Below, piece by piece: positions 45,970 through 54,063 of a stretch of DNA of 64,000 bases (position 1 is the first letter of the stretch; every line of letters starts with the position of its first letter). Position numbers and translations under genes: made by a program. A model generated the notes under the pieces. The model was not told where the DNA came from and ran no database searches. It saw only the letters and a list, made by a program, of their open reading frames with translations. Location of the stretch: NCBI RefSeq assembly GCF_011927695.1, contig NZ_JAATJE010000001.1:1054001-1118000 (forward strand), read 5' to 3'. This stretch comes from Sphingomonas jejuensis (GTDB lineage: Bacteria; Pseudomonadota; Alphaproteobacteria; Sphingomonadales; Sphingomonadaceae).

Positions 45970-46085
45970 GCTGATCCCGCCGTTCGGCACAGGTCGCGGC
46001 GGAGCCGCGCCGTCGGTCCTCGCCTAATGAGGCCGGTCGCGCTTGGCAGCGTGGGACGGAGCATACGCCCTTTCGCTGCCTGCGC

Positions 46086-46180
46086 GGTGGGAGCCGGAAC
46101 GACCCGCGGCGAAATCGTTACGGCTGCTTCCTTCCGGATCTGACCGGGTTGGCGACGACCACGTCCGCCCGACTCCCGCG
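46086..46180 (-). ncRNA. ffs: Signal recognition particle RNA (4.5S-type)
   Basis: On the minus strand, about 95 bases hold the near-invariant SRP loop region: GGTCAGATCCGGAAGGAAGC at roughly 46124-46143. The ends pair as a long hairpin: bases 46169-46177 with 46089-46097 form nine pairs with one G-U. A promoter ends seven bases before the predicted 5' end. The RNA scaffolds Ffh for targeting nascent membrane and secreted proteins. Exact ends are estimated from pairing. Confidence 0.9.
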
Positions 46181-50383: not shown

Positions 50384-50548
50384 TCAGACGGTCAGGATGA
50401 GGACGTTGCCGAGCAGCACCAGCGCCGCGATCGCCATCAGCAGGCCCTTGCGCCGGTCGCCGCGACGCCAGATCGCGACCGCGCCCGCGACGAGGCCGCC
50501 CACCGCGAGCATGGCGATGCTGAGGAGGAGATTGGACAGCCCGCTCAT
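50384..50548 (-). CDS. 54-residue membrane protein in the dehydratase operon
   Basis: This small product reads MSGLSNLLLSIAMLAVGGLV, then AGAVAIWRRGDRRKGLLMAI and AALVLLGNVLILTV, so it has two membrane helices with a basic loop between. Its ATG at 50548 overlaps the dehydratase stop by four bases, which strongly supports it as a real, coupled gene. The role is unknown; an inner-membrane accessory is possible. Confidence 0.65.
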   Translation of the reverse strand: MSGLSNLLLSIAMLAVGGLVAGAVAIWRRGDRRKGLLMAIAALVLLGNVLILTV

Positions 50549-51510
50549 CGTGCGATCACCCGCGCGAAGGCTGCCGGATCGACATTGCCGCCCGACAGGG
50601 TGACGAGCGTGCGCGCGGTTGCCGCGACGCGTCCCGCCAGGACGGCGGCGAGCGCCACGGCGCCGCCGGGCTCCACCACGAGATTGAGGGCGGAGAAGGC
50701 GAGACGCTGGGCAGCACGCACCTCCTCTTCCGACACCGCGACGCCGCGGGCACCGCGGGCGTGGAGCACGCCGAAGGTGAGCGGGGACACGCGGGTCGTC
50801 TGGAGCGCGTCGCATGCGGTCGGTGGCGGATTGGGCCCGACCGCCAGGATCTCGCCCGCGGCGAGCGACCGGGCCATGTCGTCCCAGCCTTCGGGCTCCA
50901 CCACCACGATCTCCGTTTCCGGCAGCGCGAGGGCGATGCCCGCAGCGAGCCCACCGCCGCCGCAGCAGATGATCGCGCGGTCGGGCGGGCCGCCCGCCCA
51001 AGCGTCCATCTGCGTCGCCGCCTCCAGACCGGCCGTCCCCTGCCCCTCGATGATCCAGGCATCGTCAAAGGAGGGAACGAGGGTGGCGCCGCGCGCGGCG
51101 GCGAACGCGGCGGCGATGGCTTCACGGCTCTCGGTCGCCCGGTCGTAGCCGACGATCTCGGCACCAAGGGCGAGCGTGGCCGCGCGCTTAGCCGCAGGCG
51201 CATCGGTCGGCATGACGATGGTGGCGTCGATGCCGAGCCGGCGGGCCGCCCAAGCGACGCCCTGCGCATGATTGCCGGACGAGAAGGCGACGACTCCGCG
51301 GGCGCGTTCATCGTCCGACAGGTCGGTCAGCCGGTGCCACGCCCCGCGCAGCTTGAACGCGCCGACCGGCTGGAGCGATTCGGCCTTGCACCAGAGCGGC
51401 GCCGGGCCCCCGATGTCGAGTGGCAGGAGCGGTGTCGGCACGACGACCTTTTCCAGCTTCTGCAATGCTTTAGCTATGTTTTTGGGCTCAGGCTGTCTCA
51501 AAACTGTCAC
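50545..51510 (-). CDS. Threonine/serine dehydratase, PLP-dependent
   Basis: The 321-residue enzyme deaminates threonine or serine to the keto acid. The PLP lysine is in LQPVGAFKLRGAW, followed by FSSGNHAQGVAWAARRLG and the cofactor-phosphate loop ICCGGGGLAAGIAL. There is no C-terminal ACT domain, so it is the catabolic or short type rather than IlvA. The start is the GTG at 51510, with AAGGA six bases upstream. That ribosome site lies inside the start of the structured leader on the other strand. Confidence 0.9.
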   Translation of the reverse strand: MTVLRQPEPKNIAKALQKLEKVVVPTPLLPLDIGGPAPLWCKAESLQPVGAFKLRGAWHRLTDLSDDERARGVVAFSSGNHAQGVAWAARRLGIDATIVMPTDAPAAKRAATLALGAEIVGYDRATESREAIAAAFAAARGATLVPSFDDAWIIEGQGTAGLEAATQMDAWAGGPPDRAIICCGGGGLAAGIALALPETEIVVVEPEGWDDMARSLAAGEILAVGPNPPPTACDALQTTRVSPLTFGVLHARGARGVAVSEEEVRAAQRLAFSALNLVVEPGGAVALAAVLAGRVAATARTLVTLSGGNVDPAAFARVIAR

Positions 51511-51514
51511 TTTT

Positions 51515-51638
51515 CATCCTTGCGGCGCGGAGCGGTCTTTACAGGGGGGACACCCCCCCATATATCGCGCCTCCGCTGCCCCATGGGACTTCCACCGCAA
51601 GGCAGCTTTTTCGAACTGCCCACTGGAGGTCCCTTGAG
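51515..51638 (+). ncRNA. Structured 5' leader of the ornithine decarboxylase gene (speF-like)
   Basis: Several perfect stems are visible: 51518-51525 (CCTTGCGG) with 51595-51602; 51527-51532 with 51571-51576; 51544-51549 (six G) with a run of C ending at 51559; and 51601-51605 with 51616-51620. Most striking, 51585-51594 pairs with 51624-51633 (one G-U), burying the GGAGG ribosome site at 51625-51629. The layout fits the speF motif known upstream of alphaproteobacterial ornithine decarboxylase genes. Two folds compete, so the leader may switch translation with polyamine level. The ligand is inferred only. Confidence 0.75.
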
Positions 51639-52859
51639 TTGCACAAGCATCATCGCGCGCTGGGGCTAGCTGCCGCCCCCGTCAAGGCCGTCACCGGTCA
51701 TGACATTGCCGCCACGCGTCCGGTGCAGCCGGTTACGCTGATCCGTCCGCATGCCGCGCGTCGGGCCGCCCGCTTCTTCGTGGAGAAGTTTCCGGGCCGG
51801 TCGATCTATGCGGTGAAGGCGAACCCCTCGCCCGAGCTGATCCAGCTGCTGTGGGACAGCGGCATCACGCATTTTGACGTCGCTTCGATTGCGGAGGTGC
51901 GGCTGGTGTCGCGGCTGCTGCCGGAGGCCACCTTGTGCTTCATGCACCCGGTGAAGGCGGAGGAGGCGATCGCCGAGGCCTATGAGCATCACGGCGTGCG
52001 CGTGTTCTCGCTCGATTCGATGGACGAGCTCGAGAAGATCATGCGGGCGACGGGCAACGCGACCGACCTGACGCTCTGCGTCCGGCTGCGCGTGTCCTCC
52101 GAGCATTCGAAGCTGTCGCTGGCATCCAAGTTCGGCGTTGCGCCCGACGAGGCGAAGGCGCTGCTGTTCGCGGCGCGTCAGGCGGCCGATGCCCTGGGCA
52201 TCTGCTTCCATGTCGGATCGCAGGCGATGACGCCCGACGCCTATGCGCAGGCCATGCACCGTGTGCGCCAGGCGATTGTCGATGCCGCGGTGACCGTGGA
52301 TGTGATCGACGTGGGTGGAGGCTTCCCCTCCTCCTACCCGGGCATGGAGCCACCGCCGCTGGAGCTCTATTTCCAGACGATCCACCGCGCGTTCGAAGAC
52401 CTGCCGATCAGCTATTCGGCGGAGCTTTGGGCGGAGCCGGGCCGGGCGCTGTGCGCCGAGTACAGCTCGCTGGTGGTGCGCGTGGAGAAGCGGCGCGGCG
52501 ACGAGCTCTACATCAACGACGGCGCCTATGGCGCGTTGTTCGATGCGGCGCACATCGGCTGGCGCTTTCCGGTCACGCTGCTGCGCGAGCCGGAGTCGGA
52601 GGCCAAGGACATCGCCTTTTCCTTTTACGGCCCGACCTGCGACGACCTGGACCACATGGCCGGGCCGTTCCTGTTGCCGGCGGTCACCCGGGCGGGCGAT
52701 TATGTCGAGATCGGCATGCTCGGCGCCTATGGCTGTGCGATGCGGACCGGCTTCAACGGGTTCGGATCGGTCGAGACGGTGGTCGTTACCGACGAGCCGA
52801 TGGTGACGCTGTATGATGCAGCGCAACGTCCGGCGGCCAACAACGTCGTCAAGCTGTAA
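51639..52859 (+). CDS. Ornithine/lysine decarboxylase, eukaryote-like fold type III
   Basis: The 406-residue enzyme makes putrescine from ornithine (and possibly cadaverine from lysine). It has the PLP lysine in SIYAVKANPSPE and HFDVASIAEV, the substrate/PLP region FHVGSQAMTPDAY, the glycine-rich phosphate loop VIDVGGGFPSSYPG, EPGRALCAE, and the catalytic Cys in GPTCDDLDHMA. This alanine-racemase-like fold is the common alphaproteobacterial ODC. The TTG at 51639 is nine bases after GGAGG, which lies in a structured leader. A DHS-like gene follows. Confidence 0.93.
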   Translation: MHKHHRALGLAAAPVKAVTGHDIAATRPVQPVTLIRPHAARRAARFFVEKFPGRSIYAVKANPSPELIQLLWDSGITHFDVASIAEVRLVSRLLPEATLCFMHPVKAEEAIAEAYEHHGVRVFSLDSMDELEKIMRATGNATDLTLCVRLRVSSEHSKLSLASKFGVAPDEAKALLFAARQAADALGICFHVGSQAMTPDAYAQAMHRVRQAIVDAAVTVDVIDVGGGFPSSYPGMEPPPLELYFQTIHRAFEDLPISYSAELWAEPGRALCAEYSSLVVRVEKRRGDELYINDGAYGALFDAAHIGWRFPVTLLREPESEAKDIAFSFYGPTCDDLDHMAGPFLLPAVTRAGDYVEIGMLGAYGCAMRTGFNGFGSVETVVVTDEPMVTLYDAAQRPAANNVVKL

Positions 52860-52983: not shown

Positions 52984-54063
52984 ATGACCGACACCCTGAC
53001 CAAGACGGCAGCCGCCAACGCGCCGATCAACGACACCCGCAAGGCGGAGCTGCTCTCCAACGTCGTCGAGCATATCGACATCAAGAGCTTCGACGCGCGC
53101 CCGATCATCGACGCGATGGGCAAGATGAGCTTCACCAGCCGCGATCTCGCGCGCGCCACCGGCATCTACAACCAGATGCTGGCCGATCCGGATTGCTCCA
53201 TCTTCCTGGTGATCGCCGGGTCGACATCGGCCGCCGGCTGCATGGACCTTTATGCCGAGCTGGTTCGCAACAACATGGTGGACGGCATCGTCGCCACGGG
53301 TGCCACCATCGTCGACATGGATTTCTTCGAGGGCCTTGGCCACAAGCATTACCAGGCGCTGGAAATCCCCGACGACGACACGCTGCGGTCGCTCTACATC
53401 GACCGCATCTACGACACGTACATCGACGAGGAAGACCTCCAGAACGTCGACCACACGATCTTCGAGATCGCCGAGACGCTGGAGCCCAAGGCCTATTCCA
53501 GCCGCGCGTTCATCCGCGAGATGGGCAAGTATCTGGTCGAGCATGGCAAGAAGGAGAACAGCCTCGTCAAGCTCGCCTATGAGCATGACGTGCCGATCTT
53601 CTGCCCGGCGTTCACCGATTCGTCGGCGGGGTTCGGGCTGGTGAAGCACCAGGTCGATGCGATGAAGGCCGGCAAGCCGTACCTGACGATCGATTCGATC
53701 GCCGACTTCCGCGAGCTGACCGACATCAAGATCGCAGCCGGGACCACCGGCCTGCTGATGATCGGCGGCGGCGTGCCCAAGAACTTCATCCAGGACACGG
53801 TCGTTTGTGCCGAGATCCTGGGCCATGAGGATGTCGAGGTGCACAAGTATGCGGTGCAGATCACCGTCGCCGACGTGCGCGATGGCGCCTGCTCCTCATC
53901 GACGCTGCAGGAGGCGGCATCGTGGGGCAAGGTGAACACGGGCATCGAGCAGATGGTGTTCGCCGAGGCAGCCAGCGTGATGCCGCTGCTGGCGTCCGAC
54001 GCGTACCACCGCGGCCTGTGGAAGGACCGCGCGGTGCGGGCGCACGCCAAGCTGTTCGCCTGA
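52984..54063 (+). CDS. Deoxyhypusine synthase-like enzyme, probable homospermidine synthase
   Basis: The 359-residue protein belongs to the DHS family, which transfers an aminobutyl group with NAD. Family blocks are VEHIDIKSFDARPIIDAMGK, IFLVIAGSTSAAGCMDLYAE, GATIVDMDFFEGLGHKHY, CPAFTDSSAGFGL, GVPKNFIQDTV and the catalytic Lys in ASWGKVNTG. Bacteria have no eIF5A, so the acceptor is not hypusine; relatives in bacteria use putrescine or agmatine. The upstream ODC supplies putrescine, so the product is most likely sym-homospermidine. An upstream GTG at 52960 is an alternative start. Confidence 0.9.
   Translation: MTDTLTKTAAANAPINDTRKAELLSNVVEHIDIKSFDARPIIDAMGKMSFTSRDLARATGIYNQMLADPDCSIFLVIAGSTSAAGCMDLYAELVRNNMVDGIVATGATIVDMDFFEGLGHKHYQALEIPDDDTLRSLYIDRIYDTYIDEEDLQNVDHTIFEIAETLEPKAYSSRAFIREMGKYLVEHGKKENSLVKLAYEHDVPIFCPAFTDSSAGFGLVKHQVDAMKAGKPYLTIDSIADFRELTDIKIAAGTTGLLMIGGGVPKNFIQDTVVCAEILGHEDVEVHKYAVQITVADVRDGACSSSTLQEAASWGKVNTGIEQMVFAEAASVMPLLASDAYHRGLWKDRAVRAHAKLFA

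Follow-up and report, generated by a model that had tools for sequence, protein, structure and literature searches.

The ornithine decarboxylase-type gene in the 64,000-nucleotide window analysed here (the whole stretch of Sphingomonas jejuensis DNA under study) is preceded by a leader that is, with hardly any doubt, the odc1 motif (uORF-25-1) of Brewer et al. 2021 (PMC8632094). We propose that this leader probably controls polyamine synthesis at its committed step, by translational feedback through a Shine-Dalgarno sequence (SD) gated by a pseudoknot. odc1 is already published as a class, and the part of the paper available to us counts 272 alphaproteobacterial examples. The traits described there recur in our leader (Table 1). 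It lies directly before an ornithine decarboxylase gene in a Sphingomonas host. Two UUG codons two nucleotides apart (51634 and 51639) share one ribosome binding site, and the first opens an 11-residue frame that overlaps the gene and stops at 51667-51669. The ribosome binding site lies in the 3' side of a long stem (51585-51594/51624-51633), and a pseudoknot (51575-51580/51601-51606) links the 5' end of the motif to the loop.

The leader is real and deeply conserved, and it was misread in part by the initial annotation, which had likened it to the speF motif. Gene type and bacterial class agree with a place in the speF family, but a covariance search with the speF model (RF00518) returned no match, neither in the leader nor, at a cut-off as loose as E 10, anywhere in the genome, and both length and architecture differ (PMC1273637); we regard membership as next to impossible. 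Rfam 15 gave no match to the odc1 leader, and low-score matches to viral frameshift elements were taken as chance. The only match in the window at Rfam gathering level is a bacterial small SRP RNA (46083-46180, minus strand, 55.4 bits).

Table 1. Features of the leader and of the genes behind it, in window coordinates; P1 percentages refer to a sequence-only alignment of leaders
Feature	Position	Strand	Basis
-35 element TTTACA, decarboxylase promoter (inferred)	51538..51543	+	conserved placement relative to -10 and P1 in 64/74 relatives
-10 element TATATC (inferred)	51561..51566	+	conserved placement; transcription expected from about 51572-51575
P1 5' arm GCUGCC	51575..51580	+	99.8% of cells paired, three doubly changed pairs
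P2 5' arm GGGACUUCCA	51585..51594	+	pairs with Shine-Dalgarno region
Junction CCGCAA	51595..51600	+	highly conserved; candidate ligand pocket
P1 3' arm GGCAGC	51601..51606	+	conserved core, alignment
P2 3' arm UGGAGGUCCC	51624..51633	+	exact complement; alignment; shuffle test of extension
Shine-Dalgarno GGAGG, common to both starts	51625..51629	+	sequence, conserved core
Mini-ORF, 11 codons + UAG, MSCTSIIARWG	51634..51669	+	length kept, start/stop swaps, wobble constraint
Ornithine decarboxylase-type gene, UUG start, 406 aa	51639..52859	+	PF02784/PF00278
Deoxyhypusine-synthase-type gene	52984..54063	+	PF01916, NF002699 555.9 bits

Two helices make up the fold. In P2, GGGACUUCCA pairs perfectly over ten base pairs with UGGAGGUCCC, and GGAGG lies within its 3' arm. 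P1 encloses the 5' arm of P2, and together they are predicted to form a pseudoknot of the H type whose junction contains GCAA. The conserved core runs GCUGCCCC-AUG/AAG-GGGACUUCC-(A)n-CCGCAAGGCAGC-variable linker-GG(A/G)GGUCCC-UUGA(G/A)UUGCAC. In the sequence-only alignment 97.1% of the cells are paired overall. P1 shows concerted replacements, for example GUCGCC/GGCGAC and GCAGCC/GGCUGC, among its pairs with both sides changed; P2 is mostly invariant among the relatives, so that covariation backs P1 more than P2, and P2 rests on conservation. Its extension past nine pairs nevertheless tracks each sequence's own partner better than 2000 of 2000 shuffles. The leader combines, as a riboswitch does, a conserved structure and a modest covariation, mainly in P1, coupled to an expression platform.

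Folding energy was -56.9 kcal/mol for a 127-nt stretch, part of which is DNA 5' of the expected transcription start, compared with -42.3 in shuffles (z -3.62). For the likely transcript alone (51573-51672) z was -2.21 and 4 of 200 shuffles folded equally well. Folding energy alone is modest; the real evidence is the conservation of the leader in 310 of 313 family genomes. The initial proposal of a structured polyamine-gene leader with a sequestered ribosome site was right, and the perfect pairing over GGAGG confirms its SD-burying helix.

The minimum-energy fold contains another pairing, GCUGCCCCA with UGGGGCUAGC in the mini-ORF, which is unsupported: in one leader (L015) P1 has changed in step with its own 3' arm and the coding partner has not, and the second clade has no such complement. 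In several genera, for example in the leaders L028, L077, L080, L087 and L091, the short CCAUG that separates the first arms of the two helices gives way to a longer C-rich/G-rich hairpin. In some of these leaders the hairpin would share G residues with P2 and could therefore compete with outer P2.

Upstream of P1 we place the promoter of the decarboxylase gene. A -35/-10 pair with the -10 element ending 6-12 nt (mostly 8-10) before P1 is present in 64 of 74 leaders; shuffles gave a mean of 0.31 and a maximum of 3. The relatives carry TTTACA or TTGCGA at -35 and TATATC, TATATG, TATTTA and similar hexamers at -10, with a spacing of 15-18 nt by the hexamers of the script. A strict sigma-70 scan gave no promoter match in the 51538-51566 region, and a literature search on Zymomonas transcription starts found no paper. 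A divergent gene for a PLP-dependent serine/threonine or hydroxyaspartate dehydratase (50545-51510, minus strand) adjoins the promoter.

The conserved placement of these elements suggests that transcription most likely begins within a few bases of P1, and everything 5' of about 51572 is probably not transcribed. This includes 51518-51525, which the initial annotation had paired with 51595-51602 as a competing fold. The two arms are an 8-bp complement at the DNA level; the 5' arm lies upstream of the -35 element and is probably absent from the RNA, and only two of the 74 leaders have CCTTGCGG in the 80 nt that precede P1. The conserved pairing is that of P1, which would form a pseudoknot with P2 instead of competing with it. 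Among the at least five helices counted initially, P2 holds and some others do not; the GGGGGG/CCCCCC hairpin at 51544-51559, for example, is promoter spacer. The minimal RNA for probing can be fixed at about 51573-51672, promoter DNA excluded.

The initial annotation also missed the 11-codon frame with its own UUG start that overlaps the decarboxylase gene. One SD serves both UUG codons, the mini-ORF start (UUG-1) at 4 nt from GGAGG and the decarboxylase start (UUG-2) at 9 nt. Counted over leaders that share ancestry and are not independent, the mini-ORF is exactly 11 codons long in 89 of 92 distinct leaders. It starts with UUG in 86, GUG in five and AUG in one of all 92, and the 89 leaders with 11 codons end in UAG (84), UAA (4) or UGA (1). 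That the start and stop codons change but the length does not would be difficult to account for unless the frame itself were selected. Exceptions in length are L019 with 10 codons in a different register, L092 and L117 with 16, and L094 with 22.

The enzyme frame carries the corresponding marks. Because the overlapping mini-ORF stop forces it, decarboxylase codon 10 is NTA in 88 of 89 leaders, while further down the gene NTA accounts for 3.1% of the Leu codons and 4.7% of the Val codons. At decarboxylase codons 4 and 5 GC3 is 0.22 and 0.13, compared with 0.77, so that residues 6 and 7 of the mini-ORF remain Ile or Leu in most cases. These codon patterns indicate that the mini-ORF is under selection and that decarboxylase wobble bases have been bent to keep it. 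One leader (L076, about 1501-1572) has AUG at both starts (AUGAGAUGCAC) in place of UUG, which supports the reading of both codons as starts. An in-frame upstream AUG at 51583 was discarded, since several relatives lack it or have it in another frame, and no conserved slippery sequence was seen that would allow a frameshift from the mini-ORF into the enzyme.

A peptide under selection invites the explanation that the nascent 11-residue chain, during its synthesis or termination, senses ornithine or a polyamine, and that the ribosome, once stalled, occludes UUG-2 and keeps the decarboxylase from being made, with the pseudoknot setting the basal rate only. Length and interior hydrophobic residues selected against the codon preference of the enzyme frame would fit, as would the control of enterobacterial speF by a leader peptide (PMC6386406) and the retention of the 11-codon mini-ORF in L093 and L095 despite a degraded pseudoknot. 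We find this explanation rather unlikely, as the C-terminus varies by clade (RWG versus PRL, HGL, HWL), unlike that of known arrest peptides, and the upstream RNA is conserved more strongly than the peptide. The pseudoknot is degraded and the gene kept in at least three genomes (L093, L094, L095), with the 22-codon mini-ORF in L094; they offer a natural test of which layer matters.

The two spacings from one SD, with UUG at both starts in nearly all leaders, recall the polyamine modulon of E. coli, where polyamines stimulate UUG starts and distant SDs (PMC4405209). Polyamines might then act directly on initiation, the ratio of UUG-1 to UUG-2 reporting their level without an aptamer. As the E. 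coli effect is a stimulation, feedback would need the mini-ORF as the favoured start. Such a direct effect leaves the conserved GCAA junction and the P1 covariation unexplained and sits badly with AUG at both starts of L076; it is improbable.

The distribution was searched with a covariance model (R3) that carries P1 only. Of the 313 family genomes sampled, 310 gave a single significant match each. No match came from 83 genomes that represent other families of the order, nor from 380 taken from the rest of the class. Leaders occur in Sphingomonas, Sphingobium, Novosphingobium, Sphingopyxis, Erythrobacter, Qipengyuania and other genera, names from which we take the sampled family to be the Sphingomonadaceae, broadly defined. 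The three genomes of the family that lack a leader (G153, G335, G379) belong to one genus and have no decarboxylase match, nor a match to a homospermidine-type or carboxynorspermidine-decarboxylase-like gene. The leader stands immediately 5' of the decarboxylase gene in 92 of 92 parsed and 78 of 80 named leaders, the remaining two (L133, L155) ending within the locus. Decarboxylases from the other families of the order are 44-55% identical, in genomes without the leader.

A single target per genome and loops strongly conserved in sequence would also suit a translational operator, with the pseudoknot as the binding site of a protein or a small RNA; we rate this as very unlikely. A loop based on a protein or a peptide would likewise give one target gene per genome, a point against feedback through a metabolite.

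The decarboxylase is a type III PLP-fold enzyme whose nearest solved structures are lysine/ornithine decarboxylases. The second gene behind the leader probably encodes homospermidine synthase, even though NF002699 carries a different name in NCBIfam (1,9-bis(guanidino)-5-aza-nonane synthase); in Sphingomonas the main polyamine is usually homospermidine (PMC12453569). Among 69 family genomes a homospermidine-type gene is found in 28 and a carboxynorspermidine-decarboxylase-like gene in 38, the best scores of the latter lying below the cut-off of that family. The two sets do not overlap and together comprise all 66 decarboxylase-bearing genomes among the 69. In several genomes (e.g. G032, G103, G180) the carboxynorspermidine-decarboxylase-like gene lies directly upstream of the leader. 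Retention of the leader across both triamine routes favours a shared signal, such as ornithine, putrescine or the general polyamine charge. By this pattern of presence and absence, a ligand common to both routes appears likelier than homospermidine or spermidine specifically, which narrows the ligand question. The literature search found no later papers on odc1, and the literature searched contained no ligand tests of it; odc1 is an orphan among regulatory RNAs, and the family that carries it is large and important in the environment.

Translational feedback through the pseudoknot-gated SD, which we favour, would work as follows. The mRNA would open with the H-type pseudoknot, whose second helix pairs the sole SD. 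When folded, the pseudoknot would limit initiation at both UUG codons. When it is open, ribosomes would choose between UUG-1, giving the 11-residue peptide, and UUG-2, five nucleotides further, giving the decarboxylase; UUG-1 would be a dead end for the enzyme because the mini-ORF terminates about 30 nt into the gene of the enzyme. Most likely via the conserved GCAA junction, the pseudoknot may respond to a metabolite of the pathway that every member of the family shares, with ornithine, putrescine and polyamines generally as candidates, and the response would set both the amount of translation and the start that is used. The sequences show the anatomy and conservation of the leader, its gene linkage and the selection on its mini-ORF; that a metabolite binds, which one it is, in which direction control runs and that folding is ligand-gated belong to the proposal. 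The initial annotation had likewise suggested feedback, which we judge plausible, and had rightly remarked that the ligand is not readable from sequence.

Reporter work in the part of PMC8632094 available to us qualifies this mechanism. Sphingomonas echinoides lacZ fusions in E. coli use both starts, the uORF start about three times more. Three mutations at strictly conserved positions beside the pseudoknot abolish main-ORF expression, and two of the three barely affect the uORF. That mutants at conserved nucleotides lower main-ORF expression cautions against assuming a simple switch in which the ligand hides the site; on this reporter evidence the folded loop may promote the main start, beyond hiding the SD. 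The leaders L093, L094 and L095, with their upstream fold degraded although the gene remains, also count against feedback. Tentatively, the two layers could be combined: an ornithine- or putrescine-sensing pseudoknot would gate the one SD, and the selected 11-residue peptide in the other frame would add a layer at the ribosome. If true, a riboswitch and an overlapping peptide decoy would act at a single initiation region. Overlapping start codons in two frames on one SD are in themselves an unusual control of a committed metabolic step, and the codon evidence speaks for selection on the overlapping frame.

Among known systems, the SpeFL leader peptide of Salmonella and E. coli speF resembles the mini-ORF in being a short frame ahead of an ornithine decarboxylase gene. 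SpeFL is a separate, longer peptide upstream, whereas the mini-ORF runs across the start of the enzyme and uses the same SD. The speF RNA (RF00518, PMC1273637) is, like the odc1 leader, an alphaproteobacterial leader of COG0019 ornithine decarboxylase, but it is much longer (probed as a 400-nt leader) and has other helices; in-line probing with ornithine, lysine, meso-diaminopimelate, putrescine, cadaverine and spermidine established no ligand. The spermidine riboswitch, described as a SAM-aptamer variant (PMC10853860), shares with odc1 RNA sensing in polyamine physiology. From odc1 itself, as described in the part of PMC8632094 available to us, our leader differs in nothing essential. New relative to that part, which reports no length variation, are the rare mini-ORFs of 10, 16 and 22 codons, the start and stop swaps, the hairpins inserted between P1 and P2, the position of the promoter and the restriction to one family in the searched samples.
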